This document shows, piece by piece, positions 2,167 to 47,342 of a stretch of DNA of 64,000 bases. Where the stretch lies: NCBI GenBank assembly GCA_031275735.1, contig JAISOJ010000017.1, positions 1-64,000 of the forward strand. The letters run 5' to 3'. Within the stretch, counting starts at the first letter, position 1. Each line of letters starts with the position of its first letter. The notes under the pieces were generated by a model. It saw only the letters and a list, made by a program, of their open reading frames with translations. It was not told the DNA's origin and did no database searches. Source of the stretch: Dysgonamonadaceae bacterium (GTDB taxonomy: Bacteria; Bacteroidota; Bacteroidia; Bacteroidales; Azobacteroidaceae). The position numbers and the translations under genes were made by a program.

Positions 2167-2180
2167 CAAAAAATTAACTC

Positions 2181-3771: not shown

Positions 3772-3820
3772 CTGTTATTTTAATCCGAAATGACAACTAA
3801 AAATTTAGTTTAATCACTTT

Positions 3821-4741: not shown

Positions 4742-4742
4742 T

Positions 4743-6743: not shown

Positions 6744-6754
6744 AATAAAATGTC

Positions 6755-8001: not shown

Positions 8002-8005
8002 ACGC

Positions 8006-9019: not shown

Positions 9020-9037
9020 ACAAACAGGAAACAATCT

Positions 9038-27565: not shown

Positions 27566-30487
27566 TTAGAAATTTTGTAAGAAATCCGTTAAATTATTTT
27601 CTCTATTCAAATACAATTTTTTTCGTAACCGGTAACGGTGCATCTCCACACTTCGGAACGACATGTTTGATAACGGCGCTATATCTTTTGAACTCAGTCC
27701 CATTTTGAGGTAAGCGCACAATTTCAAATCGCTTTTGGAAAGCGAAGGAAACTGTTCTTTGAGCCTTTTCAGATAGTTTTCGTAAATCATATCGAAATTT
27801 TCGGCAAACTTCTTCCAATTATCGTCCCGCTCAATATTTTGCCTGATTTCCTGCTGCATATTTTGAAGACGTTTTTTTACCGTATGAATGAAATTTGCAG
27901 CATCTGATTTGTTTATTTCTTCATATATCTTTTCAATATTGTTATTTAATTCCAACAACATTTCGTTTTTACGGATGACATTCATTGTCGAATTAGCCAA
28001 TTCTTGCGATTTATGTCTCAATTCATAATGAAGCCGTTGATTTTTCAAGGCAACAATTTCTTGTTCCTTTTCCTTTGCATCGGCTTTGAATATTTTTTCC
28101 TGTTCCAACATTTCCTTTTCTTTTTGTATTTCCATTTCCCTGGCGCCTTTTTCCGACCTTCTTTTTATGTACAACAAGAGGAAGAACAGAGCCACAACAA
28201 ATAGACTAATATAGAGGATAATAAAAATTGTAGTTTCGTACCAGGGCGAAAGTATTGTAAACGAATAAGAAGTTTCGGCCGTTTTCGATTCCAGTAAATT
28301 ACGCGCTTTTACCCTGAAGGTATAATTTCCTTTAGGTAGTTTGGTATATTCCTTCGTGTTGGCGCTCGAATAAACAGACCAATCGGTATCGTAATTTTCT
28401 AGAATATAACTATAACTAATCGACTGATCATCGCGATATTCCGGAGCAACAAACTCGAAACGGATAGAATTATGCGCATATTCAAACAGTGTTGCTTTGC
28501 TATGATCTAATTGGAAACTACCTACCAAAGAATCTCCTTCATTAGTAATATATACGCTTCTTATAGATACTTTGAAGGACGCATTTGATTTTTTCATAAT
28601 TTGAGCTTTTTTAAGATCCAACCATGAAAAACCATCTTCCGTACTTACCAAAATATTGGAATTATCAATAGGATTAAAATTTTCAAATCCGATAAACAAT
28701 TTATTTTTCAAGTAAGAAAAAGAAGAAGTATCTATCCGGTAATTTCCGTTAGCCTCTTTGTAAGCTATTGCGAAATAATCGGGCGAAAGACACCAGATAT
28801 CCCCGGAAGGCATCACCGCCAAGCGGAGGGAGTAAGAATGAAAACCGAAAAGTTGTTCATATTTTTCCGCATGTTCCATTTTATTTTTTTCCGGATGGTA
28901 GCGGAAAAAACCGTCTTCATTTGAAATGATGATTTCATTATCTATTTTGACTAAGAAATTGTTTCGGTTTGTGAGTAATCCTTTGGAAGGATCAAACATC
29001 TCTACAGAAAAACGATCCATTTCTTCATTGAGCTTCAATTTGTAAAGTCCTTTCATCCAATGACAAAACCAAATATTTCCATCCGTATCTTCTTCAATCA
29101 TTCCGCCATGCTCATCAAATCCTTTGATCGTGCGAAAGTAAGTCCATCGATTATGCTCTTTTTTCAACAAGAAAAAACCCTTATACGAAGATCCCAGTAT
29201 GTAACCGGGATGCGATTGAAGTTGGATTAATTTCCATGTGCCGTCGATATACGGAATTTGTTCGGCTCGGTCGTCTTTGACAATAAATGTTCCCCGGTCT
29301 GCTCCGCAAAAAAGCGTGTGGTCAATTTCGCTCAAATGCCATACTTGTCCTACAATCGGATCGATCAGTTGTGTTTGAAAAGGATCCGGAGAAGTAGAAA
29401 CAGGAAAAGCAGTCATATACAAACCTTGATTTGTTCCCAGATACAACCGATTATTCCTCACTTGCGAACAATATCCTGTGCCATACAAACGATTGTTGCC
29501 GAAAAGATCATACATCGGCGAATAAATCATCACATAATCGATGCCTTTATCCAAGCCTAACCATAAATTCTTTTGTTTATCGAAAGCCATACTCAAGACC
29601 GTATTGTTTTGGAGACCTGAATTTACGTTGACAAAAATGGTTTCGTTGGTATGCAAATCTTTTATTACTACGCCGTTTCGTATCGTTCCTAATGCTAATT
29701 TTGAATCATTTATTTCGGCGCAAAAAATATGGTTTTCATAAAGAAAATTATCAATATCCGTGTGATAAGGTTTTATATTTTTGCCGTTGTACAGAAACAT
29801 GCCGTGAAGAACGGTAACGAAAAGAATATCTTGCTCATTGACAGGTAAGATAGAGCAAACTTTCTTATCTTTCAATAGTTCCCCGCCCGGCAAGGAGATA
29901 AACAAATCGCCATTTAAAGTTAATGCGCCGTCTTCCATGGTCGATATCACTAAGATATCGTAAACCATTCCGGAACATTCGATTTTATGAGGAACATTCA
30001 GCTTTTTTATGCGGTCGCCTTTCATTCGGAATACTTCTCGGTCTCCCTGAAAAAAGAAAGATTCGCTGTTCCGGTGAATATGCCAGATTTCATTGAAATT
30101 TACATCTGCGGGAGGTAAATTATCCGCTATAGAATGATATTTCAGCAATCCGCACTTGTCTCGATAGTAGTATCCGAATTCGTTGAAAGCGCCGGCATAA
30201 ATCCGGTCTTCCTCTTCATCGTAGAGCAAAGAACGGGTATTAGTTTGATTTTTAATCGGATAAATATTCCAGTGATACCCATCGTATTCAAGTAAACCGC
30301 TGTTGTTGGCAAAATACATCCAATTGTTCTGATGTTGAATAATATCCCAGTTTTGCGTTCCCGCATTAGACTCTTTCCTTGAAAAATTATGCACCATAGG
30401 GTAGATGGCAAAGACGCACTCCGGAATAAAAAAAAATGCCCAAAACAAGATAAAGCCCTTTTTCATTTTTTGATATTTCATATCCAC
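27566..30487 (-). CDS. SusR-like propeller/Y_Y_Y/LuxR-HTH transmembrane regulator
   Basis: This 973-residue one-component sensor-regulator has a signal peptide (FILFWAFFFIPECVFA), a long two-component-regulator-propeller domain with repeated W-x-x-x-x-x-G-L-x-K-type blades and a Y_Y_Y domain (YILENYDTDWSVY, LPKGNYTFRVKARN). Then come a single membrane helix (IILYISLFVVALFFLLLYI), a coiled coil of about 100 residues and a LuxR-type helix-turn-helix ending in SFRSVEMHRYRLRKKL. It lacks histidine kinase and receiver domains, so it is not a hybrid two-component system. It is divergent from the GH3-SusCD-GH16 genes and probably senses a glucan oligosaccharide in the periplasm. Confidence 0.88.
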   Translation of the reverse strand: MDMKYQKMKKGFILFWAFFFIPECVFAIYPMVHNFSRKESNAGTQNWDIIQHQNNWMYFANNSGLLEYDGYHWNIYPIKNQTNTRSLLYDEEEDRIYAGAFNEFGYYYRDKCGLLKYHSIADNLPPADVNFNEIWHIHRNSESFFFQGDREVFRMKGDRIKKLNVPHKIECSGMVYDILVISTMEDGALTLNGDLFISLPGGELLKDKKVCSILPVNEQDILFVTVLHGMFLYNGKNIKPYHTDIDNFLYENHIFCAEINDSKLALGTIRNGVVIKDLHTNETIFVNVNSGLQNNTVLSMAFDKQKNLWLGLDKGIDYVMIYSPMYDLFGNNRLYGTGYCSQVRNNRLYLGTNQGLYMTAFPVSTSPDPFQTQLIDPIVGQVWHLSEIDHTLFCGADRGTFIVKDDRAEQIPYIDGTWKLIQLQSHPGYILGSSYKGFFLLKKEHNRWTYFRTIKGFDEHGGMIEEDTDGNIWFCHWMKGLYKLKLNEEMDRFSVEMFDPSKGLLTNRNNFLVKIDNEIIISNEDGFFRYHPEKNKMEHAEKYEQLFGFHSYSLRLAVMPSGDIWCLSPDYFAIAYKEANGNYRIDTSSFSYLKNKLFIGFENFNPIDNSNILVSTEDGFSWLDLKKAQIMKKSNASFKVSIRSVYITNEGDSLVGSFQLDHSKATLFEYAHNSIRFEFVAPEYRDDQSISYSYILENYDTDWSVYSSANTKEYTKLPKGNYTFRVKARNLLESKTAETSYSFTILSPWYETTIFIILYISLFVVALFFLLLYIKRRSEKGAREMEIQKEKEMLEQEKIFKADAKEKEQEIVALKNQRLHYELRHKSQELANSTMNVIRKNEMLLELNNNIEKIYEEINKSDAANFIHTVKKRLQNMQQEIRQNIERDDNWKKFAENFDMIYENYLKRLKEQFPSLSKSDLKLCAYLKMGLSSKDIAPLSNMSFRSVEMHRYRLRKKLYLNRENNLTDFLQNF

Positions 30488-30837
30488 ACAATATTAGAGC
30501 CTAAATTTTACTTTTTTTTTTCGTTAAATTCACTTGTGAAATATGTTATACAGCATATTGTATTTTAATATATTAATTTATAACGATTTAAAAATTATAA
30601 TGTAGAATTAATGTTGAGTTTTTTATAGGGCTTTTATGAATTATTGTGAAGGTTTTTATTAGGATTAATCATAAATAAACTCTATTTTTGTAGAATATTT
30701 AAGTGCGTATAGTAAGTGCAATTTAATCCTAAAAATATAATGAAAAACATTCATATGTCATTCGCCATTGTTCAAAAAATAAATTTATGAAACAATCCTC
30801 ATAATGTGTGCGGAATGTTCCCTGTAAAAATATATTA
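30488..30837. promoter_or_regulatory. Divergent control region between the regulator and the GH3 gene
   Basis: This 350-bp AT-rich spacer must hold the promoters of both flanking transcripts. TATTTTTG at 30683-30690 on the plus strand matches the -7 consensus and lies about 150 bp before the GH3 start, with no clear -33 TTTG. The operator of the SusR-like regulator is expected here, but I see no obvious dyad. Confidence 0.45.
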
Positions 30838-33111
30838 ATGATGAAACACAAGAAATTTGTAACAAAAGATCTATTTCAGCTTGCAAATCAGTGGCTCGGA
30901 ATTTTGTCTTTCCTCTTTTTAATTGCCTGCGGCGATCAATCGATCAACGATCCCGTAGAAAAGAAAGTAAGCGGCTTGTTATCCAAAATGACTTTGGAAG
31001 AAAAAATCGGGCAACTGATACAACAGAACTCCGAAGGGTATTCCGACAACAAGATCGGGCAGATCAAAAACAGCGCTATCGGCTCTATCCTGAACGAAAC
31101 AAACCCGGAAACAATCAATGCTTTGCAGAAAATCGCCGTCGAAGAAAGCCGTTTAGGCATTCCCATTCTTTTTGGCCGCGACGTCATTCACGGTTTCAAA
31201 ACCATTTTTCCCGTTCCATTGGGACAGGGCGCATCCTGGAATCCGCAAATAGTAGAAGAAGGTGCCCGGATAGCCGCTATCGAAGCCGCTTCGACCGGTA
31301 TTCGCTGGACATTCGCTCCAATGCTGGATATTGGCCGCGACCAACGCTGGGGACGCATCGTTGAAGGATTCGGCGAAGATCCTTACCTGACTTCCGCTTT
31401 GGGCGCCGCCATGATCCGCGGATTTCAGGGCGAACGATTAAACGATCCGACCTCCCTGGCTGCCTGTGCCAAGCACTTTGCCGGTTACGGCGCAGCAGAA
31501 GGCGGACGCGATTACAACACGTCTATCATTTCCGGCGAACAGTTGAGAAACACGTATTTACCCCCGTTCAAAGCGGCTGTCGATGCAGGAGCGGCCACGT
31601 TCATGGTCTCTTTCAATGAAATCAACGGCGTACCCAATTCGGGAAACCCCTGGCTTACTCAACAACTCCTTCGGAAAGAATGGGGATACGACGGCATGGT
31701 GGTAAGCGACTGGAACTCCGTCGGCGAAATGATCAATCACGGATATGTAAAAGATCCGGAAGAAGCCGCGCTGGTAGCATTAAAAGCCGGAATAGACATG
31801 GATATGGAAAATCATGTTTTCTCTCATTTGACTAATTTAGTGAAAAACAAAAAAATAAAAGAATCGGAAATTGACGAAGCCGTCCGGAGAGTATTAAGGC
31901 TCAAATTCAAACTGGGACTTTTCGAAAATCCGTATCTTGCAACTACGCAGCCCGTTTTCTACGCGGAAGAACATTTGGCCATTGCCCAAAAAGCCGCCGT
32001 AGAAAGCGTCGTATTGCTGAAAAATGAAAATAATCTCCTGCCATTGGCCAATACAATTAAATCGGTAGCCGTGATCGGCCCAATGGCCGATGCTCCGCAC
32101 GATCAGTTGGGAACCTGGGTGTTCGACGGAGAAAAATCCCATACCGTCACGCCGTTGACAACGCTCCGCGAAGAATACGGATCAACATTGAAAATCAACT
32201 ACGCTCAGGGACTTAACTTCAGCCGCGACAAGGATACCAAACAATTTGCCCAAGCAATCGCTGCCGCCAAAGCCAGCGACGCCGTTCTGTTCTTTGCCGG
32301 CGAAGAAGCCATCCTTTCAGGAGAAGCCCACAGCCGCGCCGACATTTCCCTGCCCGGCGCACAAAAAGAATTATTGGCCGAAGTCGCCAAAACGGGAAAA
32401 CCCATTGTATTGATTGTTATGGCAGGCAGAACCACCGAAATCTACAAAGAATTGCCGCTGGTAAACGCCTGTCTTTTCTCCTTTCATCCCGGAACGATGG
32501 GCGGACCGGCACTGGTGGATTTGATTTTTGGAAAAGCCGTTCCTTCGGGAAAACTTCCGGTTACTTATCCCAAAATGGTTGGTCAAAGTCCCATCTATTA
32601 TAACCATAAAAATACAGGACGTCCGCCCGTAGGCAATATAGAAAATATCGACGACATCCCGTTGGAAGCAGGACAGGTATCGTTGGGAAACACCAGTCAT
32701 TACCTGGACGCAGGGAAAGATCCGCTGTTCCCGTTCGGTTACGGGCTTTCATACACCACTTTCCAATACAGCGATTTGAAACTTTCCGCCAAGGAGATAG
32801 GAAAAGATGAACAACTCGTTGCCTCTTGTGTGGTTACGAATACAGGAACGTTCGAAGGCGCAGAAACCGTTCAATTATATATCCGCGATTGGGTTGGCTC
32901 TATCACCCGTCCGGTGAAAGAACTGAAAGCCTTTGACAAAATCACGCTGAAAGCGGGAGAATCCCGTACCGTTTCGTTCACGCTGACTGCCGACGATTTG
33001 AAATTCTGGAACAACGACAATCAACAACTGCTGGAAGCCGGCGATTTCACCCTATGGATCGGACCAAACAGCGCCGAAGGATTGGAAACAAACTTCAAAC
33101 TAAAAGAGTAG
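30838..33111 (+). CDS. bglX: GH3 beta-glucosidase lipoprotein
   Basis: This 757-residue glycoside hydrolase removes glucose from the non-reducing end of beta-glucan oligosaccharides. The signal peptide ends in a lipobox (FLFLIACGDQ), so the enzyme is lipid-anchored. The GH3 N-terminal barrel has GRDVIHGFKTIFP, GRDQRWGRIVEGFGEDPYL and KHFAGYGAAEGGRDYN. The nucleophile is Asp291 in MVVSDW. The GH3 C domain and a fibronectin-III-like end follow. The start is one of the two adjacent ATGs at 30838 and 30841; the GTG at 30808 is less likely. Activity on beta-1,3 or beta-1,6 linkages cannot be read from the sequence. Confidence 0.93.
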   Translation: MMKHKKFVTKDLFQLANQWLGILSFLFLIACGDQSINDPVEKKVSGLLSKMTLEEKIGQLIQQNSEGYSDNKIGQIKNSAIGSILNETNPETINALQKIAVEESRLGIPILFGRDVIHGFKTIFPVPLGQGASWNPQIVEEGARIAAIEAASTGIRWTFAPMLDIGRDQRWGRIVEGFGEDPYLTSALGAAMIRGFQGERLNDPTSLAACAKHFAGYGAAEGGRDYNTSIISGEQLRNTYLPPFKAAVDAGAATFMVSFNEINGVPNSGNPWLTQQLLRKEWGYDGMVVSDWNSVGEMINHGYVKDPEEAALVALKAGIDMDMENHVFSHLTNLVKNKKIKESEIDEAVRRVLRLKFKLGLFENPYLATTQPVFYAEEHLAIAQKAAVESVVLLKNENNLLPLANTIKSVAVIGPMADAPHDQLGTWVFDGEKSHTVTPLTTLREEYGSTLKINYAQGLNFSRDKDTKQFAQAIAAAKASDAVLFFAGEEAILSGEAHSRADISLPGAQKELLAEVAKTGKPIVLIVMAGRTTEIYKELPLVNACLFSFHPGTMGGPALVDLIFGKAVPSGKLPVTYPKMVGQSPIYYNHKNTGRPPVGNIENIDDIPLEAGQVSLGNTSHYLDAGKDPLFPFGYGLSYTTFQYSDLKLSAKEIGKDEQLVASCVVTNTGTFEGAETVQLYIRDWVGSITRPVKELKAFDKITLKAGESRTVSFTLTADDLKFWNNDNQQLLEAGDFTLWIGPNSAEGLETNFKLKE

Positions 33112-33236
33112 ATATTTATTGATTAATCTTTTATTTAATTACATTCATGAAAAAACAAGCATGCGCATCGGTTGTGTTTTTTGAACGTTGGAAAAGTTTT
33201 TTTAACGTTGTAGATTTGTGTATGTCAGACATTTAC

Positions 33237-33290
<54 letters not shown>

Positions 33291-33328
33291 CTCGCGCGCG
33301 TAATTTATATAAAGAATATCACATATCC

Positions 33329-33373
33329 AAACACAGCTTGCCCCCTTATACGGGGAGGCAAGCTGTGTTTTTT
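33329..33373 (+). terminator. Strong intrinsic terminator after the GH3 gene
   Basis: AAACACAGCTTGCC (33329-33342) pairs perfectly over 14 bp with 33357-33370. Further C:G pairs extend it toward the loop, and a run of six T follows (33368-33373). It separates the GH3 transcript from susC. Confidence 0.85.
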
Positions 33374-33425
33374 GTACCCTTGCCGGATTCATGCTTGCAA
33401 AACCCCGGCACGATAATGACTTATC

Positions 33426-33460
33426 CATAACTCATAATTCATAACTCATAATTTATAATT
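33426..33460. repeat. Tandem heptamer array in front of susC (CATAACT family)
   Basis: Five 7-bp units run without a gap: CATAACT, CATAATT, CATAACT, CATAATT, TATAATT. They end 39 bp before the susC start. The same heptamers, inverted, follow murE at 53201-53228, and related ones precede ftsW at 55954-56002. Confidence 0.85.
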
Positions 33461-33499
33461 CACAGTAATATTGGTTTTTAAATTTTAAATTTTTTACGC

Positions 33500-36400
33500 A
33501 TGAAAAAAAATCTTTTAAGTTTCCTGTTGCTTTTATTCCTGTTGGGGAATATGGCAGCGCAGAACACCTCCATCAGAGGGGTAGTTCGATCGGCCACTGA
33601 TTCAGAGCCGTTGATTGGAGTAAGTGTAATGGTAAAAGGGACGTCAAACGGTACCGTAACGGACATAGATGGCGCCTTTACCCTTTCGGTTCGACAGGGA
33701 GATGTGCTGACGTTTAATTATTTGGGCTATCAAACGCAGGAAATCCCGGTTGGAAACCAGACTGTTTTTGATGTAGCGATGCAGGAAGACGATCAAGTCC
33801 TGGACGAGGTCGTTGTCATCGGTTACGGAGTTCAGAAGAAGAGCCTTGTATCGGGCGCTATTACAAAGGTAACATCAGCCGACCTTGAAAAAGCAATGCC
33901 GACTCGCCTGGAAGACGTATTGAACGGTAGAGTTGCCGGATTGGCAGTTATGCAGAGCAACGGGCAACCGGGCGCCGGATCCGATATGCTAATTCGCGGC
34001 ATCGGCTCCGTAAACAATTCCAGTCCGCTGTATGTTGTTGACGGGATGCAAATCGAAGGCAGCATCTCTTACCTCAACCCGAAAGACATTGCCTCTGTCG
34101 AAGTATTAAAAGATGCAGCCTCGGCTGCCATATACGGTACACGCGGTGCAAACGGCGTTATCATTATCAATACCAAACAGGGCGAAAAAGGCAAAAAAAT
34201 CATTAACTACGACTTCTCCTACGGCTGGCAAAATCCGTGGAAGAAAAGGGAAGTTCTCAATGCCCGGGAATATATGACATTGATGAACGAAATGCAGGTG
34301 AACGACGGCAACATGATTCGATTTACAGCCGATGAGATTGCCAACGCCCAAACCACCGACTGGCAGAACGAAGTTTTCAATTACGACGCCCCCATTGTCA
34401 ATCACAACGTAAGTATGACCGGAGGAAGCGAAACAAATTCCTATGCTTTTTCGTTCGGCTATTTGAATCAGGAAGGTATCGTAGGCGGTAATTACGGAAA
34501 ATCGAATCTGGAACGCTACAATTTCCGCATCAACGACAAACAAACGGTATTTGAAACGGATACCCGTAATTTCCTCAACCGCCTGAAAGTAGGCGTAAAT
34601 CTGGGATACACGCATGGAAGCAACACAGGCATCGAAGCAAACAGCGAGTTCGGTTCGGTTCTGGGCAGTGCAATGGTTTTTGCCCCTCACCTGCCTGTTT
34701 ACGCAAGCGATCCCGATGCGACACTGAGCGCTTATCCCAATGCGGTGAAAGATAAAAACGGAAAAGTATTCACGATTCCGCTTGCCTCCGATAAATATCA
34801 GGAAATCGGCAATCCCGTTGCCATGCTCAACAATACCGCCCAATATCAAATCAATGAAGAAGACGTATTTGTCGGCGGCGTATGGGGCGAACTCGATATA
34901 TGGAAAGGGCTGAAATTCCATACCGGTTATTCCGTCGACATGTCGTTCTGGGGAAACAACGGTTACAATATGCCCTATTATATAGCGCCGCAAGGCAAAC
35001 ATATCGACGATTTGGAACACTCCAACATCTATGGAGAAAAAAACAAACGCTTCACCTGGCAAACCGAAAATTATTTGTCGTGGACAGAAACGTTTGCTGA
35101 TAAGCACAACGTTGAAGTCATGCTGGGCCAGTCGGCGCTGAAGACTACAACCAACCAGATTGGCGGTTCGCGCGGCGTGCCTCTTTTCGACGAACACGAT
35201 TTACTGCTTTCCATGAATAATACCCTTGCCGACAACACCTATTACAATGTTTACGGGTATTATAACGGCGGAGAGGTAAATTTCTATGCGCTGGCTTCGT
35301 ATTTCGGACGTTTCAACTACAATTTCGACGAACGGTACATCCTTTCCGCCTCACTCCGCCGCGACGGATCGTCCCGTTTCGGACCCGACAAAAAATGGGG
35401 CTTGTTTCCGGCCGTATCCGCAGCGTGGAACATCCTGAACGAGCCGTACATTTACAATAAACCGCAATGGATGGAAGCAGCCAAATTGCGTGCAAGCTGG
35501 GGACGCAACGGTAACGACCGGATTGGCGATTTGAGATACATGACAAACTATGCCCGCGGAGGCGCTTACGATTACTATTTCGGCGGCGGTTTCGACCCTG
35601 CAACAAATTCCTGGACAGGCTCGCGCGTTTCGGGTGTACAACCCGGCGCCATCGAAAACCGCCTGCTCGCATGGGAAGAGTCCGAACAAATCAATATCGG
35701 TTTCGACCTGCTCTTGTGGCGCGGTGCATTCAATTTCTCTTTCGACGGGTACAAAAAATCAACTATCGGCATGTTGCAAACAGCTATCATTGCCCCTTCG
35801 ACAGGGCAAGGCGCGCCGATCGGCAACGTCGGCTCCATGTCCAACAAGGGGTTTGAAATAAACGCCGGCTACAAAGGCAGAATAGGAAAATTCAATTTTT
35901 TTGTCGATGCAAACGCCACCTATGTCAAGACCGTTTTGGATAAATATGCCAACGCAACCGGTATTCAAACCAATATCGAAAATCAGGGCAATACCGGCGT
36001 CGGCGAATATATGCGCGGACAAACAGGCGAAGTTTATCCTTTCTTCTTCGGTTTGAAAACCGACGGATTGTTCCAGACAACCGACGAGATAAACAATTAT
36101 ACTTATACAACCGTCGACGAAGCAACCGGACTGGAAACAACCCAACTGATTCAACCCAATGCCCGCCCCGGCGATATCCGTTTTGTGGATACCAATAATG
36201 ACGGACAAATTACGGCTGCCGATAAAGTTAAAATCGGTAAACCGATGCCCGATTACCTGTTCGGCGTCACAATCGGCGGCGACTGGAAAGGATTCGACTT
36301 TAACCTGTTCTTCAAGAGTGCGATCGGTTTCCAAATTTTCGACTATGCACAACGGGGCGACGTTACGGCGCTGAACCGTCCGGCATGGATACTTCAACGC

Positions 36401-36718
36401 TGGCATGGAGAAGGAACTTCAAACACTGTGCCCCGCATGACGGCGGAAAATCCGAACGGCAACTACAATTCTTCGGACATGTATTTGAAAGACGGTTCGT
36501 ATCTCCGGTTGAAAACGGCGCAAATCGGATATACGCTGCCCTCGCAGTATACTCAAAAAATATCGGTACAGAAATTGCGTCTATATGTTGCAGCATACAA
36601 CCTCCTGACCTTTACCGGTTACGACGGTTTCGATATAGAAATGGGAAGTCACAGTGTGGACAGGGGTATTTATCCCCAGGCACGTACTGTTGCATTAGGA
36701 GCAAGCATTACTTTCTAA
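33500..36718 (+). CDS. susC: SusC/RagA-family TonB-dependent outer-membrane transporter
   Basis: This 1072-residue outer-membrane channel imports oligosaccharides with its SusD lid, powered by TonB. It has a signal peptide (LLSFLLLLFLLGNMAAQ) and a carboxypeptidase-regulatory-like domain with SIRGVVRSATDSEPLIGVSV. The TonB-box region and plug contain VVVIGYGVQKKS and PLYVVDGMQIEG. The plug continues with LKDAASAAIYGTRGANGVI, and a 22-strand-type barrel ends in GASITF. The length is normal and no frameshift is seen. It starts the susCD-lipoprotein-GH16 operon. Confidence 0.96.
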   Translation: MKKNLLSFLLLLFLLGNMAAQNTSIRGVVRSATDSEPLIGVSVMVKGTSNGTVTDIDGAFTLSVRQGDVLTFNYLGYQTQEIPVGNQTVFDVAMQEDDQVLDEVVVIGYGVQKKSLVSGAITKVTSADLEKAMPTRLEDVLNGRVAGLAVMQSNGQPGAGSDMLIRGIGSVNNSSPLYVVDGMQIEGSISYLNPKDIASVEVLKDAASAAIYGTRGANGVIIINTKQGEKGKKIINYDFSYGWQNPWKKREVLNAREYMTLMNEMQVNDGNMIRFTADEIANAQTTDWQNEVFNYDAPIVNHNVSMTGGSETNSYAFSFGYLNQEGIVGGNYGKSNLERYNFRINDKQTVFETDTRNFLNRLKVGVNLGYTHGSNTGIEANSEFGSVLGSAMVFAPHLPVYASDPDATLSAYPNAVKDKNGKVFTIPLASDKYQEIGNPVAMLNNTAQYQINEEDVFVGGVWGELDIWKGLKFHTGYSVDMSFWGNNGYNMPYYIAPQGKHIDDLEHSNIYGEKNKRFTWQTENYLSWTETFADKHNVEVMLGQSALKTTTNQIGGSRGVPLFDEHDLLLSMNNTLADNTYYNVYGYYNGGEVNFYALASYFGRFNYNFDERYILSASLRRDGSSRFGPDKKWGLFPAVSAAWNILNEPYIYNKPQWMEAAKLRASWGRNGNDRIGDLRYMTNYARGGAYDYYFGGGFDPATNSWTGSRVSGVQPGAIENRLLAWEESEQINIGFDLLLWRGAFNFSFDGYKKSTIGMLQTAIIAPSTGQGAPIGNVGSMSNKGFEINAGYKGRIGKFNFFVDANATYVKTVLDKYANATGIQTNIENQGNTGVGEYMRGQTGEVYPFFFGLKTDGLFQTTDEINNYTYTTVDEATGLETTQLIQPNARPGDIRFVDTNNDGQITAADKVKIGKPMPDYLFGVTIGGDWKGFDFNLFFKSAIGFQIFDYAQRGDVTALNRPAWILQRWHGEGTSNTVPRMTAENPNGNYNSSDMYLKDGSYLRLKTAQIGYTLPSQYTQKISVQKLRLYVAAYNLLTFTGYDGFDIEMGSHSVDRGIYPQARTVALGASITF

Positions 36719-36746
36719 ATTTATATTCATTAAAAAAAACAATAAA

Positions 36747-38357
36747 ATGAAAACGTTAAAAATTTTATTTATAACAATCATAACCGCAGGATTTTTCAGT
36801 TCCTGCAATGACGAGTTTCTGACGGCAAGTTCCACCAACTCAAAACCATACGGAACGGAACCGATAACAGAGGAAAGTGTTAATGAAAACTTGGCTGCCG
36901 CTTATCACATCTTGTTGCGCGACAATTATGCAAGCGGATACAACAGTACGATATTTACTTCCGACCTCCGTTCCGACGATGTTTTCAAGGGCGGCGGCGA
37001 CGCTGCCGATCAACAGCAATTCGAAAATCTGGCTACATTTACCTGCGACCCGTCCCTCAATCTGGGCGGCTTTTGGGAGTTGTATTACAGGGGAGTTGCC
37101 CGCTGCAACGAAACAATAGCCAATGCCGATCAATTTATTGCCGCAGGAACAGGCAACCTGGATTTGGTTTCGCAATACAAGGAAGAAGCCATTTTCCTGC
37201 GTGCCTATTACATGTACTGGATTTGGTTAAACTGGGGCAATGTTCCCTATCCCAAACAATTAGTTACTCAAGAAACCGAGTTTATCGCCGTACAGTACAC
37301 TGCCGACGAAGTCTATAACCATTTAATGGAAGACATAGCCGAATGTGAAAGAATCGGTAAGCTGGGGCTGAAATCGCCCGAAATCGGCCGCACAAACCTC
37401 GCTGCTGTCTATATGCTTAAAGCCGCTATTGTAATGTATCAGAAAGACAATTCGAAATACAACGAAGTAGCCGCAAACATGGCTGCAATTATCAAAAGCG
37501 AGGATTATGACCTGATGAACAACTTTGACGAAATGTGGTTGCAGGAAAACGAGTTTTGCAAGGAAAACATCTTTGAATCCAATATGGGTTCCGGCGAATT
37601 GGACTGGAGCGGATCCGCAGGCAATCCCTATGGTATGGGCACCAACCTGCCGTGTTATCTTTCGCCGCGTTCATTGAACGATCCTTCGGGCGTATTTGAA
37701 GGCGGATGGTGCTTTGCGCCGGTTCGCCCGTATCTTTACAAGCTGACAGGCGACGCCGTTGACAGCGACGGAAAACAGCCGATTTTCGAAGCAAACGACG
37801 TCAGACGTGAAGCTTCCATTAATCACTGGTCGTTTGCTGCCGGCGAATACTCGCCGGGCTATCAAGACACAAGAGGCTACTTCCTGCGCAAATATGCCGC
37901 CCGCAAGGGTTACAGTGTGTCCGGAGAGATAACGTTGAACTATTGCAACAACGTGCGTATTTACCGCTACGCCGAAACACTGCTCAACTATGCCGAACTG
38001 GTCGGCGTACTCGGAGCCGGCGCATCGGGCGGCGTTACCGCACAAAGCTGTCTGGACAAGGTACGCTCGCGTGCCGGTGTCGGCTCCGTTCCAGTCAATC
38101 AGGACAATATCGAAAAAGAACGTCATCGCGAATTTATCGGCGAAGGCAAACGCTACTGGGATTTGGTGCGCTGGGGAAAAGCGGCACAAACACTGACCGA
38201 AGACTTTCTTCAACCGTCGCTTAGCGGAAGCGGGAGCGAATCGACTTTCAGGTGGAAACGTACATGGACGGAAAAAAACAAATATCTGCCCATTCCCAAA
38301 GAAGAAGTGGACGCCCGCTTGGGTACCGCTTACGAAATTATTCAAAATCTGTATTAA
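36747..38357 (+). CDS. susD: SusD/RagB-family surface glycan-binding lipoprotein
   Basis: This 536-residue lipoprotein forms the lid on the SusC barrel. The signal peptide ends in a lipobox at FFSSCND. The protein has the TPR-like helices of the family, with EEAIFLRAYYMYWIWLNWGNVP and the C-terminal RHREFIGEGKRYWDLVRWGKA signature. A YLPIPKEEVDA motif lies near the end. It lies 28 bp after susC and partners it. Ligand residues cannot be identified by eye. Confidence 0.95.
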   Translation: MKTLKILFITIITAGFFSSCNDEFLTASSTNSKPYGTEPITEESVNENLAAAYHILLRDNYASGYNSTIFTSDLRSDDVFKGGGDAADQQQFENLATFTCDPSLNLGGFWELYYRGVARCNETIANADQFIAAGTGNLDLVSQYKEEAIFLRAYYMYWIWLNWGNVPYPKQLVTQETEFIAVQYTADEVYNHLMEDIAECERIGKLGLKSPEIGRTNLAAVYMLKAAIVMYQKDNSKYNEVAANMAAIIKSEDYDLMNNFDEMWLQENEFCKENIFESNMGSGELDWSGSAGNPYGMGTNLPCYLSPRSLNDPSGVFEGGWCFAPVRPYLYKLTGDAVDSDGKQPIFEANDVRREASINHWSFAAGEYSPGYQDTRGYFLRKYAARKGYSVSGEITLNYCNNVRIYRYAETLLNYAELVGVLGAGASGGVTAQSCLDKVRSRAGVGSVPVNQDNIEKERHREFIGEGKRYWDLVRWGKAAQTLTEDFLQPSLSGSGSESTFRWKRTWTEKNKYLPIPKEEVDARLGTAYEIIQNLY

Positions 38358-38374
38358 TTTATAAATTAACGAAT

Positions 38375-39796
38375 ATGAAAAACATAATAAAATTCACATT
38401 TATGGCTTTGGCCGTCATTTTTGCGTTGACGGCTTGCACGCCGCAGGAATTTGATGAGTACACACTGGGAGGTTCCTATACAATCACTCAGGAGCAGTTC
38501 ACTTTTGATATAACTCGCGGAAGCGACGAATTTACCTACAATTTCACTGCTTCTTTCAGTGTTGACCCTACCCAATATCCCTATACTTACGAAATTCATT
38601 TCGGCGACGGACAGGTAACTAAAGATCTGACCGGAAGTCACGAATACATTGTTTTCAAAGGGACCTACACGGCTCAATGCCTTGTTTACGTTCCAAACGG
38701 TGATGTGGTTATCAAAGAAAAAACAATTACTTTTGCGAACGACAATCCGAATATCTATCAAGACGATCCGGCGAGTCCGCAGTTTGCGTTAGCGGGAGGA
38801 AAAGACAATGCAGCAGGGAAAACATGGGTACTGCTCAGTAGTTCCGGTTTGGGTCCCGTCGACGCTACTTGGGGCGAATGGTGGCAATTTAGCGAAGCTG
38901 CCCTGTTCGATGATGAATTTACTTTCCAACCCAACAGTATTGAACCGAACGGCAAGTTCAGCCATAACATCAACGGCGCTACTTTCATGAATGAATCGCT
39001 GGGCAATTTGTTCCCCGACGGCGACCCTGAAAATTCGTTTGTAACGACGGCCTACACTCCGCCGTCCGACGCATCCTGGGAAATCGCATTAAAGGATGGA
39101 AAATACTGGTTGACCGTTAAGAAGGGATTTATCGGCTACGCCGTAACTCCCAACGATTTGGATAAGACGGAATATGAAATCCTGTCGTTCACTCCGGAGG
39201 AAATTCAGCTTAAGTATTATTCTCCGGACAACAATGCATGGTTTTTCTTCCTCGGCTCCGATGTTCCTTCCAGTCCGTTGACGGGTGAAGGTTCCAAAAC
39301 ATGGGTTATCGACGGATATAATACGCAAACATCAAAAGTAGCTGCCGAAACCGGACTGAATATAAAAGGATTCATGGGCTTGGGTCCCCTCAATTCGTAC
39401 GGACAGGAATGGTGGGGAGCCGGCGCCGGCGAGAAATCCGAATGGACGCTCTCTGACTGGAAAATCACGTTTACATCGTCCAATCAGTTGAAAATCGAAA
39501 CGGCAGGAGAAGGTTACGGTAGAAAGGCTTTCGACGGGGAAGGGTTTACTTCCACGTCCGTCGTCGGCGACGATATGACGTTTGCCTACGACGGCGGCGA
39601 TTATACTTATACGCTTACCGATGCAACGCCTTATCCGAAATTGACCCTTTCGGGAAATGCTTTTCTGGGTTATTATGTCGGTACACAGGAATATGAAATC
39701 GTCTATTTAGCGGACGACGTCCTGGCCGTAGCGGCGCACAATGCACGGGAAGAGCAGGATTGGGTACTTGTATTTATTCCGGAAGGTGAGCAATAA
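38375..39796 (+). CDS. Surface glycan-binding-type lipoprotein with PKD-like domain
   Basis: This 473-residue lipoprotein has a lipobox at FALTACTPQ. After it comes an Ig/PKD-like segment (YTYEIHFGDGQVTKDL) and then two W-rich repeats, each beginning with a TW-V segment: KTWVLLSSSGLGPVDATWGE and KTWVIDGYNTQTSKVAAETG. Position after susD and before GH16 matches non-enzymatic glycan-binding proteins of Bacteroidales beta-glucan loci. Direct evidence for binding is absent. A longer frame opens inside susD at 38252, but the ATG at 38375 gives a clean lipoprotein signal. Confidence 0.8.
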   Translation: MKNIIKFTFMALAVIFALTACTPQEFDEYTLGGSYTITQEQFTFDITRGSDEFTYNFTASFSVDPTQYPYTYEIHFGDGQVTKDLTGSHEYIVFKGTYTAQCLVYVPNGDVVIKEKTITFANDNPNIYQDDPASPQFALAGGKDNAAGKTWVLLSSSGLGPVDATWGEWWQFSEAALFDDEFTFQPNSIEPNGKFSHNINGATFMNESLGNLFPDGDPENSFVTTAYTPPSDASWEIALKDGKYWLTVKKGFIGYAVTPNDLDKTEYEILSFTPEEIQLKYYSPDNNAWFFFLGSDVPSSPLTGEGSKTWVIDGYNTQTSKVAAETGLNIKGFMGLGPLNSYGQEWWGAGAGEKSEWTLSDWKITFTSSNQLKIETAGEGYGRKAFDGEGFTSTSVVGDDMTFAYDGGDYTYTLTDATPYPKLTLSGNAFLGYYVGTQEYEIVYLADDVLAVAAHNAREEQDWVLVFIPEGEQ

Positions 39797-40917
39797 TGTT
39801 CATCATGAAAAATATGGGTTATTTATTTATCACCTTGTTGACGCTATTCGGATGCGGTTCCAATGAGCCTTCGGGAGTGGAACCGCCTCCCGTAGCGGAG
39901 ACCTATCTGTCTGTCAGTCCGGACGAGGTATCTATTCAAGAAAACGGCACTACGCAAATCGTAGTTACTTCCAATACGGAGTGGACGGTTTCTTCCGACG
40001 CAGAATGGTGCAGTTGCTCGCCTAAATCAGGCAGTATGGGAAGTACCAATATCTTGATTACGGCTACTTCCAATTATACCGGAAGTAGCCGGTCGGCAGA
40101 ATTGACCTTTACGGCGGGTTCGGTCGGCAAGAAATGTACTGTCCGGCAAAAATCCACTCAAGTTGTCAACCATGTGCCGGAAGGTTACAGTCTGGTTTGG
40201 CAGGATGAGTTCAACGACGCTCGACCAGATAACGGGAAAGCAGTGTTGCCTAATACCTCTCGGTGGTGGTACGAAACAGGAGCCAGCGGTTGGGGAAATC
40301 ACGAATTGCAAAACTATATTCCCGGTGTATCCGGTAATGATACGTGTGCGGCCATCTCCGATGGTACGTTGAAAATCACCGCTAAAAAAGTAGGCGGACA
40401 GGTGTTATCCGTTCGAATGAATACCCAGCAGGGCTGGACTTACGGCTATTTCGAAGCGCGACTGAAACTTCCGCAAGGCAAAGGCACTTGGCCTGCTTTC
40501 TGGATGATGCCCAAAAACTTTCAGGCATGGCCCGAAGATGGGGAAATAGACATCATGGAAGAAGTGGGTTACCGTCCGAACTGGGTTTCTTCGTCCATCC
40601 ATTGCAAAGCATACTATCATTCCATCGGGACGCAAAAAACGGGGGAAAAGTTCGTTCCCACAGCCGAATCCGATTTCCACATCTATGCTGTAGAATGGAC
40701 GGCGGATGTTATTCGAGGATTTGTGGACGGCGACAAGTATTTTGAGTTTTCCAACGATAAAAAAGGCGACAAGAACACATGGCCTTTTTATACGCCGTTC
40801 TACCTGAAGCTGAACTTGGCATGGGGAGGCGACTGGGGAGGTTCGCAAGGAGTGGATGAGAGCAAATTACCAGCTACTTATGAAATAGATTATGTTCGCG
40901 TTTATCAAAAAGAATAA
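39796..40917 (+). CDS. BACON-GH16 endo-beta-glucanase lipoprotein
   Basis: This 373-residue lipoprotein (lipobox LFGCGSN) has a BACON domain (residues about 35-120, with NTEWTVSSDAEWCSCSPKSG) followed by a GH16 domain. The catalytic signature E-I-D-I-M-E starts at E250 with D252 and E255 (nucleophile and acid/base). Sugar-binding tryptophans are in WWYETGASGWGNHELQNY. The pattern is that of laminarinase/lichenase-type GH16 enzymes acting on beta-1,3- or mixed-linkage glucans. Its ATG overlaps the stop of the previous gene by one base. An ATG at 39805 is an alternative start. Confidence 0.92.
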   Translation: MFIMKNMGYLFITLLTLFGCGSNEPSGVEPPPVAETYLSVSPDEVSIQENGTTQIVVTSNTEWTVSSDAEWCSCSPKSGSMGSTNILITATSNYTGSSRSAELTFTAGSVGKKCTVRQKSTQVVNHVPEGYSLVWQDEFNDARPDNGKAVLPNTSRWWYETGASGWGNHELQNYIPGVSGNDTCAAISDGTLKITAKKVGGQVLSVRMNTQQGWTYGYFEARLKLPQGKGTWPAFWMMPKNFQAWPEDGEIDIMEEVGYRPNWVSSSIHCKAYYHSIGTQKTGEKFVPTAESDFHIYAVEWTADVIRGFVDGDKYFEFSNDKKGDKNTWPFYTPFYLKLNLAWGGDWGGSQGVDESKLPATYEIDYVRVYQKE

Positions 40918-43418: not shown

Positions 43419-43871
43419 ATGATTAAAAAAATTTTCATAAGCATTTTTCTTGTTTTTGTTGCGCTACAATCCTGTAACGATGAAATTTTTTCGCCGGTTC
43501 CTTATGCTCCCGTTCAATTAACATTGGATTTGCGCTACAAAGATAGCGAATTGAACAATGTGTGGGCATATAAAAAATTCATTACCAAACGTTTGGAAAT
43601 AGAAAAATTAGGATTTGGAGGAATTTTAGTGATTAATGGGGGAGGCATAGATATGCTTAATCTTTTTGCTTATGATTTAGCTTGCCCGATGGAACTGAAC
43701 AGGGAAATCCGAATTGAACCGGACAGTACAGGAAGAGCAACTTGTCCTCAGTGCAAATCTGTTTATAATATAGCGAATGGTAGCGGAGCCCCTCTTTCAG
43801 GAAGTAAATATTTTTTAAAAGCATACAGAGTTTCTTCTTTAGGAAACGATTGCTATTTAGTTTCCAATTAG
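43419..43871 (+). CDS. Lipoprotein with degenerate Rieske-like domain
   Basis: This 150-residue lipoprotein (lipobox VALQSCND) ends in a segment laid out like a Rieske fold: LACPMELNREI, then TCPQCKSVYNIANGSGAP, then FLKAYRVS. Canonical Rieske centres need C-x-H and C-x-x-H. Here both histidines are absent and the motifs read CPM and CPQC, so a [2Fe-2S] Rieske cluster cannot form. Similar lipoproteins occur in Bacteroidales. The function is unknown. It meets the next gene tail to tail with a 3-bp gap. Confidence 0.7.
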   Translation: MIKKIFISIFLVFVALQSCNDEIFSPVPYAPVQLTLDLRYKDSELNNVWAYKKFITKRLEIEKLGFGGILVINGGGIDMLNLFAYDLACPMELNREIRIEPDSTGRATCPQCKSVYNIANGSGAPLSGSKYFLKAYRVSSLGNDCYLVSN

Positions 43872-43874
43872 CCG

Positions 43875-44558
43875 TTAGAATTTCGCCTTATAAGCGACTC
43901 CCAGCGATAGAATATGCGGATCATTGCCGGATAAGTATTCGTCAAGCCGCACGAAAAATTCCATATAAGTAGTACGGTCTATCCGCCAACTCGCGCCTCC
44001 TTCGTAGCGAATCCGCAAAAGTTCATGACCCATGACCGGATCGTTTAAGCTCGTTGAAAGATCGCATGAAATATAAGGCTTCCAAGGGGAACCCCATATT
44101 AGATAAGCCGCTTCAAATTTGTTCTTCATCACGTACTTGGGATTAATTTTGTATTCACCCCTGTTTTCATCTCTATAAGTACATTGCAATCGTCCTCGCC
44201 ACGATAAAACATAGGGTTCGAATGTTTCTTTATACGATAGATTTAAATAATAACGATGCCTGGCCTCATAAAGATAATCGTTGTTGTAAAGATAGATAAA
44301 AGCATAGTAAATTCCCGTCTTTAGTTTTTTATCTAAAAACGAATAATCTAAACCGAAAGAAGTTATACTCCGGTCAAAGCCTATATTATTATTGGTAAAC
44401 CGTATTTCCTCGTCTATCGCCAGCGCCAGGAATCTGTTCAAATCTTTCTCTCCTGCCAGCGAGAAAGAAGCGCCTACATCCATCTCCCTTTGACTTTGAG
44501 CGAAAGAAGAAAATGAAATAAAGAATAAGAATAGTGTATATTTGATTTTTTCTGTCAT
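43875..44558 (-). CDS. DUF2490-like outer-membrane beta-barrel protein
   Basis: This 227-residue protein has a signal peptide (FLFFISFSSFAQ) and many alternating beta strands typical of a small outer-membrane barrel, such as WRGRLQCTYR and MEFFVRLDEYLSG, and ends LGVAYKAKF with a terminal phenylalanine. It matches the DUF2490 pattern from memory. The ATG at 44558 is preferred to 44597, which lies inside the previous gene. It is the last gene of the VTC-centred operon. Confidence 0.75.
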   Translation of the reverse strand: MTEKIKYTLFLFFISFSSFAQSQREMDVGASFSLAGEKDLNRFLALAIDEEIRFTNNNIGFDRSITSFGLDYSFLDKKLKTGIYYAFIYLYNNDYLYEARHRYYLNLSYKETFEPYVLSWRGRLQCTYRDENRGEYKINPKYVMKNKFEAAYLIWGSPWKPYISCDLSTSLNDPVMGHELLRIRYEGGASWRIDRTTYMEFFVRLDEYLSGNDPHILSLGVAYKAKF

Positions 44559-44571
44559 TCCGATTCGTATT

Positions 44572-45279
44572 TCAAGAAAAGCGCGTAATGCTGTCAATCG
44601 TATTTATCTCGTTTGAACCGGCTTTATAATAGACTTTTAAAAAAGCCACATCCCTCAAAAAATCAATATGTCCCACCTCAACTTTAGTAATATCCAAACC
44701 GGTACGCTCTTCTAAATCAGCTACCAGTTCGTCGTACCTGTCGGGCTTGATCAGATTTATCTTTTCGTAAAGAATAATCTTGTTTGAAGTATGCCGGAGG
44801 AATTTATTACTTTCGAGAATCCATATGACAAGCAAGAAAAGCAAGTTGGCTGCAACTACCGACAAATAAGGAATTTCCATAGATAAACCATTGACGACCG
44901 AAATACCGATAACAACAAATAAATAAGTCATTTCCCTGATTTGTACGGTTTCCGTCCTGTACCGGATCATACCGAAAATAGCAAAAAGTCCCAGTGCAAA
45001 TCCAATTTGCATTGGAATACTTTGCAAAAGGAATAACAAAAGGAAGATGGTTACGCTAAAAAGCATAAAAGTGAAATAATAATCTTTCCTACGGCTTTTT
45101 TTATAATAAAAAAACTGGATAATCAGCCAACATACCAAGAGATTAAAACTAAACCGCAAGATAAGCATCCAAAAATCAGTTGGGTCGTAAACGTCCACGC
45201 CCATGAAAGTAAGCCCTTTTTCTGCTAATTCGGAGGCATGCTCGGAGGCAATTTGAGGATCGTAATCGGATTGAATCAT
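44572..45279 (-). CDS. DUF4956 membrane protein
   Basis: This 235-residue protein has about four membrane helices in its first 150 residues, including FWMLILRFSFNLLVCWLIIQ and MQIGFALGLFAIFGMIRYRT. A cytoplasmic alpha/beta tail follows. The FGMIRYRTE motif after the third helix is characteristic of DUF4956. Genes of this family frequently neighbour VTC-domain polyphosphate polymerases, exactly as here (6-bp gap), so a membrane partner for polymer synthesis or translocation is plausible but unproven. Confidence 0.85.
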   Translation of the reverse strand: MIQSDYDPQIASEHASELAEKGLTFMGVDVYDPTDFWMLILRFSFNLLVCWLIIQFFYYKKSRRKDYYFTFMLFSVTIFLLLFLLQSIPMQIGFALGLFAIFGMIRYRTETVQIREMTYLFVVIGISVVNGLSMEIPYLSVVAANLLFLLVIWILESNKFLRHTSNKIILYEKINLIKPDRYDELVADLEERTGLDITKVEVGHIDFLRDVAFLKVYYKAGSNEINTIDSITRFS

Positions 45280-45285
45280 GAAATT

Positions 45286-46059
45286 TTATCGTATTAATTT
45301 ATTAATTGTAGACCATTTACCCTTAAAGCGATTGTATTTGACGCAGGGATCTGTCAGTACGATCCCCATGCAATATTTACTAAAAGACAAAGGTTTAATG
45401 TTCAATTCGTGCAATATTTCCCTAAAATCGGAATGTTGCCGGCCGCTTTGTTTCAATTCGAGAATCATTAATTCGTCTAAAGCGACTTTATTCCCTGTTC
45501 TGTAATTCGCAAAAGAAAGATTAATATCGATTGTAACCCGTTCTGTAGCTTTATTATTAACAAAGGTAATCCGTTGGAATTGGTTAGCTAAAGATGGTTT
45601 CAAATTGCTACTGCTAAACATCGAGTTTTTTTCGACAAACTGTTTTTTTTCGTTTAAATCATCGACGGAAGCTAAATGGGAAAGTGGAACGGGAACACGC
45701 ATTTTGCTTGTTCTCCCTTTATTATTTTTATTTTTTATTTCCAGAAACGAAAGATTTGACTCGACATACGAACGAATACGAATTTTTTGCCGGTTTAATT
45801 TTCCGTTTTGATGCATGACAAACATTTCCAAATCGGGTGTGTCTAAATATTGGGTACAATAAGGCGCAATTTGTTTACCCTCGGTTTTTTGTACTTTGAA
45901 ATAAGGATTCATTTCTTCCAAAAGTTGGGGAAGAAGAGAAACCGCCGCGACGAATTTCGAATCAATCCGATCCATTAAACGGATATTCTCCATTTCTTCT
46001 AATGAAATGGTTTTCATTTTGTCTAAAAGGGCGTTAATTCTTGTTAATTCGACATCCAT
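45286..46059 (-). CDS. VTC-domain (polyphosphate polymerase-like) protein
   Basis: This 257-residue cytoplasmic protein has the tunnel-fold VTC domain of the yeast polyphosphate polymerase Vtc4 and its bacterial relatives. It carries basic and acidic motifs in the expected order: R31-x-D-x-K35, YLDT (71-74), RQKIRIR (90-96), LEIKNK (106-111), ERVTID (173-178), ELK (201-203) and SKYCMG (227-232). Polyphosphate synthesis from ATP is predicted from the fold and residues. No SPX domain is present. It is central to a five-gene operon with a DUF4956 partner. Confidence 0.88.
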   Translation of the reverse strand: MDVELTRINALLDKMKTISLEEMENIRLMDRIDSKFVAAVSLLPQLLEEMNPYFKVQKTEGKQIAPYCTQYLDTPDLEMFVMHQNGKLNRQKIRIRSYVESNLSFLEIKNKNNKGRTSKMRVPVPLSHLASVDDLNEKKQFVEKNSMFSSSNLKPSLANQFQRITFVNNKATERVTIDINLSFANYRTGNKVALDELMILELKQSGRQHSDFREILHELNIKPLSFSKYCMGIVLTDPCVKYNRFKGKWSTINKLIR

Positions 46060-46062
46060 CCC

Positions 46063-46530
46063 TTATTTATATGAATATTCGTAAATTTTAGTGGAATATA
46101 ATTTTCCGTCCGGATTATAATTGTATTGGATTTTTTTTCTTCCATTCGAATTATATTCGTATTTGCGAATGCGGTATAACTTATTTTTATCATTATAAAC
46201 ATTTTCTCGGATGCACTTGCCAAGGGAATCATATTCAAAAGTTACCCGTTCTCTTTGTCCGTAAACAGCATATTCGATTTCTTCTAATTTATAACCATTT
46301 TCATCCCAGACTGTTAGGTGATCCATCCATTTCCTTTTTCCTTTGGAGTCGGCATTCATTTCTTTGACTACCAGATTTTTTCTAAATTCCCGTTTTTCTT
46401 CCGGAGTCAAAAAAGGCGTTTGTGCTTGAGAAAGTACAGGCGCGACCGATTTTTGATCTTGAGCAATACTATTAATTAAATAAACACCAATTAAAAACGC
46501 CACTATCAGGGTTACTTTCTGTTTTTTCAT
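46063..46530 (-). CDS. Exported protein with YD-repeat-like pattern
   Basis: This 155-residue protein has a signal peptide (VTLIVAFLIGVYLINSIA) and a C-terminal half built of short strand pairs, as in VTFEYDSLGKCIRENVYNDK and IRKYEYNSNGRKKIQYNYN. The pattern recalls RHS/YD-type or toxin-immunity-like repeats. I do not recognise a family. It sits 3 bp upstream of the VTC gene in the same operon, so an envelope role linked to it is possible. Confidence 0.65.
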   Translation of the reverse strand: MKKQKVTLIVAFLIGVYLINSIAQDQKSVAPVLSQAQTPFLTPEEKREFRKNLVVKEMNADSKGKRKWMDHLTVWDENGYKLEEIEYAVYGQRERVTFEYDSLGKCIRENVYNDKNKLYRIRKYEYNSNGRKKIQYNYNPDGKLYSTKIYEYSYK

Positions 46531-46541
46531 TTTATTATTAT

Positions 46542-47342
46542 CTAATTGTTCAATATGATGGTAAATTCCAACCTTTCTTCATTTTCTAATGGATAAATTC
46601 GGTAAGGATCGCGCACTTCTATTTTTTTATAAATTGGAAATAATATGTTTTTGTGTTCTTCTCCCGGTATTTCCGTATTTACATATACTTCGTATAGTTT
46701 ATCGGGATGAATTTTCTGAAAAACAAAAATACCTTTATCACCTACCCTTACGTCATCGAAATGAGTATCTTCACCTTCATATTTGATATAAACGCGGTTT
46801 TCTACGGCAGGTATGGAGTCCTGTCCATCAATACTAACAAGACGCCCCTTATTATAATATTTGACCCAAACCATACCTTTAATTATTGCTGTTTCGACTG
46901 CATCGCCGGTATGAATAAAAATAGTATCCGCTTTATTCAGATTACCGCTTACTTTAACATTTTTAGATACCACTTTTTTTTGTTCTCCGATAGATTTAGA
47001 CAGAGCATAAACCGTGTAATTGCCTTTCCTAAGGTAATCGAAACGATAATATCCTTCCCTACCTGTCCTCACTCGTTCGCCAATGCTGGCGTCATCGCCA
47101 AATTCGATAAAGACGTCGGCGTCCAAAGAAGGGAAAATATGGGTTTGAAAAGAGTAATTATCGTCTAAGTGTTCAATTTCATACACATAGCCTTCCAACG
47201 AAGATGAACCGCCCAAACCTTCGCCTTTATTGCAAGCGTTGCATAAAAATATTATTGAAAATAAGACAAACGGAGAATAGAAAATGAAAAATGGAAAATT
47301 ACTTTTCTTTTTCAGGAAATTATGTATACGCAAGTGCTTCAT
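46542..47342 (-). CDS. Lipoprotein with carboxypeptidase-regulatory-like domains
   Basis: This 266-residue predicted lipoprotein has a long hydrophobic leader (FIFYSPFVLFSIIFLCNAC) with the lipobox cysteine in CNACNKG. Two beta-sandwich segments follow: DVFIEFGDDASIGERVRTGR with YYRFDYLRKGNYTVYALSKS, and a second with VGDKGIFVFQKIHPDKLYEV. These look like carboxypeptidase-regulatory or SdrD-B-like repeats. It is the first gene of the VTC operon. The function is unknown. Confidence 0.65.
   Translation of the reverse strand: MKHLRIHNFLKKKSNFPFFIFYSPFVLFSIIFLCNACNKGEGLGGSSSLEGYVYEIEHLDDNYSFQTHIFPSLDADVFIEFGDDASIGERVRTGREGYYRFDYLRKGNYTVYALSKSIGEQKKVVSKNVKVSGNLNKADTIFIHTGDAVETAIIKGMVWVKYYNKGRLVSIDGQDSIPAVENRVYIKYEGEDTHFDDVRVGDKGIFVFQKIHPDKLYEVYVNTEIPGEEHKNILFPIYKKIEVRDPYRIYPLENEERLEFTIILNN

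Follow-up and report, generated by a model that had tools for sequence, protein, structure and literature searches.

Why should a bacterium carry a VTC-type polyphosphate polymerase in one operon with a membrane protein of the DUF4956 family and three envelope proteins? The question is raised by a 64,000-nucleotide stretch of a Dysgonamonadaceae bacterium (GenBank assembly GCA_031275735.1, contig JAISOJ010000017.1), referred to here as the window. A preliminary description of this DNA had suggested that five of its genes form an envelope-spanning system for an anionic polymer such as polyphosphate. We found that these genes are a real, conserved unit, and the idea remains a reasonable one which is better supported than before. 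The specific reading that we prefer, that of a bacterial SPX-free VTC-type polyphosphate synthase whose product would pass by way of DUF4956 to a module in the envelope, seems to us about evenly balanced between right and wrong.

A check of the open reading frames in the window found all five genes as described, on the minus strand throughout and arranged as one operon (47342-43875; Table 1), with intergenic gaps of 11, 3, 6, and 13 bp in the order of transcription. These values take ATG 44558 as the start of the DUF2490 gene; a start at TTG 44597 would make it overlap the DUF4956 gene.

Table 1. Genes of the VTC-DUF4956 operon in order of transcription, with positions in the window.
Product	Length (aa)	Position	Strand	Remarks
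Lipoprotein	266	46542..47342	-	First gene; two carboxypeptidase-regulatory-like sandwiches; putative fold
Exported YD-like protein	155	46063..46530	-	TIGR01643 weak; N-terminal hydrophobic signal
VTC-domain protein, SPX-free putative polyphosphate polymerase	257	45286..46059	-	PF09359
DUF4956 inner-membrane protein	235	44572..45279	-	PF16316; some five membrane helices; alpha/beta domain, probably cytoplasmic
DUF2490 putative outer-membrane barrel	227	43875..44558	-	PF10677; alternative TTG start 44597

The conservation of the unit was assessed across 295 Bacteroidales genomes, across 109 VTC loci scanned by six-frame profile search, and across 68 named loci which were gathered with the single VTC protein of the window as query and which overlap in part with the 109. 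The full five-gene order was present in 28 of the 109 loci, the window not being counted, and in 37 of the 68. Within the genus of the window VTC was found in 23 of 41 genomes and DUF4956 in 21, and all 21 genus members with DUF4956, the window included, showed the five-gene order. The genes flanking the operon vary from locus to locus among relatives and, since the order is kept while the flanks differ, the five genes appear to be conserved as one unit; the preliminary description had taken a neighbourhood that does not recur as counting against its idea, and this is not what was seen. The closest relatives that have names are for the most part Bacteroidales metagenome-assembled genomes labelled Dysgonamonadaceae, Candidatus Symbiothrix, or Tannerella, and these, together with the genome of the window, probably come from termite guts.

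The core of the unit is the pair of VTC and DUF4956, which is widespread and occurs in several gene settings. DUF4956 adjoins VTC in 107 of the 109 loci, and in the 295 genomes the two families were found together in 139, VTC alone in five, DUF4956 alone in 12, and neither in 139 (odds ratio 322, p 4e-62); among 14 control genomes both were present in the same three. It should be noted that in these and the following co-occurrence statistics kinship was handled only in subset tests, namely the VTC-CotH test at about one genome per family and the test for Cthe_2159. The gene arrangement is far beyond chance. Two genus members with small genomes (G091 and G313) have neither VTC nor DUF4956. In a second class of VTC-DUF4956 pair a protein of about 355 aa, which has no Pfam match, is encoded directly upstream (L004:430-1497 and some 20 further loci). 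As far as the literature searched shows, the five-gene form of this known but uncharacterised module has not been described.

The VTC protein matches PF09359 with 116.7 bits against a cut-off of 23 (E 1.5e-33), and as this is the only Pfam family over cut-off in its 257 residues an SPX domain is absent. It contains no transmembrane-like segment, hence no fused membrane helices, which agrees with the cytoplasmic location originally proposed. On its own the protein gave no match to solved structures in a phmmer search; a profile of 42 relatives matched the solved Vtc4 structure 3g3q (E 1.2e-11). Twelve tunnel residues were mapped through this profile alignment: R31, K35, R94, R96, E107, and K109 correspond to Vtc4 R196, K200, R264, R266, E279, and K281, and R163, R174, E201, K203, S227, and K228 to R361, R373, E426, K428, S457, and K458. 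All twelve are identical in 42 of 42 sequences, so that the expected catalytic residues are indeed in place; they include the equivalents of R264, R266, and E426, which have been mutated to inactivate Vtc4 (PMC9911596), and of K458, which has been named catalytic (PMC4641920). Where TTM phosphatases have glutamate, R31 and K203 provide a basic residue, as Vtc4 does, and among the departures from Vtc4 are F161 for Y359 and K111 for H283. The predicted structure (predicted local distance difference test, pLDDT, 96.4) has Vtc4 as its best match in the PDB (3g3r, with AppNHp-Mn; Z 19.1, root-mean-square deviation 2.8, 220 residues), and TTM phosphatases and cyclases follow at Z 14.5 and lower. Because the tunnel residues of Vtc4 are kept and the closest fold is that of Vtc4, above the phosphatases, the protein resembles a working polyphosphate polymerase and such an activity is likely, as predicted from sequence and model. 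No functional study of any bacterial VTC protein was found in the literature searched, which covered few subscription journals.

The assignment of its membrane partner to DUF4956 was borne out by a match to PF16316 of 193.7 bits against a cut-off of 30.6 (E 2.6e-57), with about five membrane segments in the sequence and, in the model (pLDDT 84.8), five membrane helices followed by a C-terminal alpha/beta domain. G97, R108, and F121 are invariant in the alignment, the signature of which reads GLFxIFGxxRYRT...EMTYLF, and conservation is strongest at the inner end of helix 3, where the invariant R108 of RYRT is located. The positively charged loops, together with the N-termini, which resemble signal sequences in 13 of 47 aligned proteins, point to a topology with the N-terminus outside, in the periplasm, and the C-terminal domain inside. 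Middling fold matches to AcrB segments, MscS, and Orai were dismissed as common helical arrangements.

The three remaining proteins are assigned to the envelope, and with them the system spans the cytoplasm, the inner membrane and, by family, the outer membrane, as had been stated. The DUF2490 protein was confirmed by PF10677 (45.5 bits, cut-off 29.8, E 9e-12), a family listed as a putative porin (TC 1.B.81; PMC4827864). Both the lipoprotein and the YD-like protein have N-terminal hydrophobic signals, as exported proteins would; the domain assignments fared less well. The lipid cysteine of the lipoprotein (Cys37) is invariant, and the CxKExGxGG-type tether after it is conserved, in 28 aligned proteins; the CarboxypepD_reg match of 23.7 bits (E 6e-5) lies below the cut-off of 32.3, and the proposed sandwich fold is plausible. 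In some relatives the protein is shorter, at about 135 aa, and has a single domain. The YD-like protein reaches 19.2 bits against 15.8 for TIGR01643 (NCBIfam), yet no single stretch passes alone, and its match to PF05593 is below cut-off; G79 and G91 are invariant in 25 aligned proteins.

Taken in this order, the parts suggest how the system might work. The cytoplasmic VTC domain would move gamma-phosphates of ATP onto a polyphosphate chain growing in its tunnel, and DUF4956, with its RYRT motif and alpha/beta domain on the cytoplasmic side, would anchor the enzyme at the inner membrane and carry the product across. The passage through DUF4956 is proposed by analogy with yeast, in which the exit of the VTC tunnel faces a membrane pore (PMC9911596). 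The three envelope proteins may then retain the product, control its passage, or display it in the periplasm and at the outer membrane, from where it could serve surface components. In many relatives the partner there is perhaps a secreted kinase of the CotH type or a beta-helix protein (Cthe_2159) whose gene adjoins the operon. The closest known system is the eukaryotic VTC complex (Vtc4 with Vtc1, Vtc2/3, and Vtc5), which has in common with the operon a TTM tunnel domain, the residues of its active site, and the combination of a cytoplasmic enzyme with a membrane subunit. The window differs in that its enzyme has neither SPX nor fused membrane helices, that DUF4956, which showed no match to the Vtc membrane domain, takes the place of the membrane partner, and that its three envelope proteins have no eukaryotic counterpart.

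The same membrane protein can be read in another way, with VTC providing a cytoplasmic store or signal in phosphate/ATP balance, DUF4956 acting as an MgtC/ACT-like regulator, and the envelope proteins being sensors or merely co-transcribed. The DUF4956-like SIR_1592 of Streptococcus intermedius has been described as an MgtC membrane domain joined to an ACT domain (PMC12345266), and the C-terminal domain of our DUF4956 model gave weak matches to ACT-type regulators. In Bacteroides thetaiotaomicron BT3498-BT3499 (DUF4956 and DUF2490) changed together under iron limitation (PMC10434189), which shows the same two genes adjacent in a cultured gut Bacteroides; this comparison rests on the expression record of two genes. 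A kinship with MgtC, which was prompted by a motif spotted by eye, was not supported by profile comparison (hhalign probability 1.9%, E 0.025), for which only two MgtC sequences were used. Against a purely cytoplasmic role there is also the fact that three of the five conserved genes code for exported proteins and that the neighbours are mostly surface proteins, and we regard it as possible but doubtful.

These neighbours in relatives, above all CotH and Cthe_2159, are the best functional clue to the proposed export system, and they lie outside the genes with which the preliminary description was concerned. Among 93 operons of the window's type (class b) which had enough flanking DNA, in genome samples that overlap in part, CotH was found in the flanks of 25, Cthe_2159 in 23, either in 47, and both in one, almost without exception in the direction of the operon and as a rule no more than 100 bases away; CotH was also near eight of 34 other loci. 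The commonest Pfam match among 116 co-directional neighbours was the type IX secretion tail (26), followed by CotH (10), Reg_prop (nine), Cthe_2159, histidine kinase, response regulator, and lamin-tail (seven each), and LytTR (six). At the genome level CotH occurs in 123 of 144 genomes with VTC and in 62 of 151 without it (odds ratio 8.4, p 1e-15), the odds ratio being 8.5 (p 3e-7) with about one genome per family; the link between Cthe_2159 and VTC goes in the same direction and is weaker. The genome of the window has one CotH match, on another contig, which bears a signal peptide and, at its C-terminus, a weakly DUF6383-like domain, and large YD/RHS-like proteins are encoded near it (L187:10664-17886). 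Cthe_2159 was not detected in this assembly, which is 76% complete. At L047:8655-13576 and similar loci the operon is preceded by a run of type IX secreted-protein genes, the products of which (an arylsulfotransferase, a propeller protein, and a CotH with a lamin-tail domain) all have secretion tails.

A comparable set of genes is known from Gram-positive bacteria, in which CotH, a VTC-type polymerase, and DUF4956 have been described together in pel loci (PMC7112168). The NELoc-2 locus of Clostridium perfringens holds VTC, 'tubulin', and CotH genes (PMC2879425), and judged by size and place the 'tubulin' genes are probably DUF4956. In S. intermedius deletion of the DUF4956-like SIR_1592 or the CotH-like SIR_1594 altered Pel amount and aggregation, and the same study saw no such CotH-VTC-DUF4956 synteny outside pel (PMC12345266); in our Bacteroidales loci CotH adjoins the VTC-DUF4956 pair in settings other than pel. 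What these loci share with the operon is a VTC gene paired with one for a like membrane protein, and in many of the Bacteroidales relatives CotH is close by, whereas in the window the pair is flanked by the lipoprotein and YD protein on one side and the DUF2490 barrel on the other and has no adjacent CotH. No Pel family was among the 25 commonest neighbour families of the relatives, Pel genes not having been searched by name.

This association could mean that the exported product is a phosphoryl donor for secreted CotH-type kinases where ATP is scarce. The flanking CotH genes, the co-occurrence which persists at one genome per family, the exported CotH of the window genome, and the recurrence of CotH with VTC and a DUF4956-sized membrane gene in NELoc-2 and with VTC and DUF4956 in the pel loci would all fit, and the source of ATP for spore-coat CotH has been called unanswered (PMC7821199). 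Nevertheless ATP is the substrate in known CotH activity, many operons have Cthe_2159 or neither neighbour, and in S. intermedius an effect on aggregation is reported for the deletion of CotH and not for that of VTC; we consider such a donor role unlikely. The fuller relay, in which VTC polymerase, DUF4956 conduit, and outer module together bring polyphosphate to CotH as a substitute for ATP or to Cthe_2159 for matrix binding, is in our estimate a little less probable still.

Several observations weigh against the export reading that we prefer. No CotH or Cthe_2159 gene adjoins the operon in the window, and the lack of a reported effect for deletion of the S. intermedius VTC gene SIR_1593 (PMC12345266) is a caution. 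Fold searches with DUF4956 returned no confident solved relative, and a role as a pore is proposed for it from the yeast complex. Two genus mates (G193 and G327) have VTC downstream of enolase with the active site kept (L032:8112-8876 and L211:5991-6737; in G327 with one conservative change, K111R), while DUF4956 was not detected in either genome and the other operon genes are not beside VTC; the VTC-DUF4956 coupling is therefore not absolute, which suggests that VTC can serve the cell by itself or that these copies are recent remnants. The preliminary description was right that there is no ppk in the window, but one PPK1, which belongs to a family unrelated to VTC and would make the same polymer, is encoded on another contig, so that the operon is not the only possible source of polyphosphate in this genome. 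Replacement of PPK1 by VTC, or a partnership of the two, was considered and rejected, as PPK1 is independent of VTC across the Bacteroidales (p 0.54). Finally, the place of Vtc4 T198 is taken by an acidic residue, D33.

This last residue also speaks for a rival reading, in which the VTC domain acts in its tunnel on other triphosphates, by hydrolysis or transfer, and polymerises no phosphate. Phosphatases and cyclases are common among TTM enzymes, and no assayed bacterial VTC protein was found in the literature searched. The basic R31 and K203, the invariance of K228 (the catalytic K458 of Vtc4), and a closest fold which is Vtc4 and not a phosphatase make this quite unlikely. Chance or inherited gene order with no joint function is highly improbable, for although common ancestry would lead one to expect some synteny within the Bacteroidales, the order is kept across many families with differing flanks and the odds ratio for VTC and DUF4956 is 322.

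The surroundings of the operon in the window can be described briefly. Upstream lies mraZ of the division cluster, divergent from the operon; downstream and convergent with it are genes for a small lipoprotein (43419-43871, plus strand) and a PBP4-type carboxypeptidase. The small lipoprotein has a C-P...C-P-x-C pattern, which on inspection by eye resembles a Rieske fold whose ligands are cysteines, and several genus mates (L032, L214, and L220) have a homologue in the same position. Some 40 kb from the operon a PhoU-like DUF47 protein is followed by a PHO4/Pit-type phosphate transporter (1516-3182, plus strand), and next to these is a heterodisulfide-reductase-like iron-sulfur/FAD cluster with a flavin reductase-like end (3223-9874, plus strand), which was named by eye with one member checked against Pfam. 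Genes for GH3, SusC/SusD-like, PKD, and GH16 (BACON) proteins at 30808-40917 (plus strand) resemble a locus for beta-glucan utilisation; a propeller-type sensor-like gene (27566-30487) lies on the opposite strand.

If the export reading is true, the operon would give bacteria an equivalent of the yeast VTC machine and a dedicated route of polyphosphate export which is separate from PPK. The link with CotH would make the phosphate donor of secreted kinases outside the cytoplasm a testable matter. As about every second Bacteroidales genome in the sample has VTC (144 of 295), the answer would matter for many gut bacteria.

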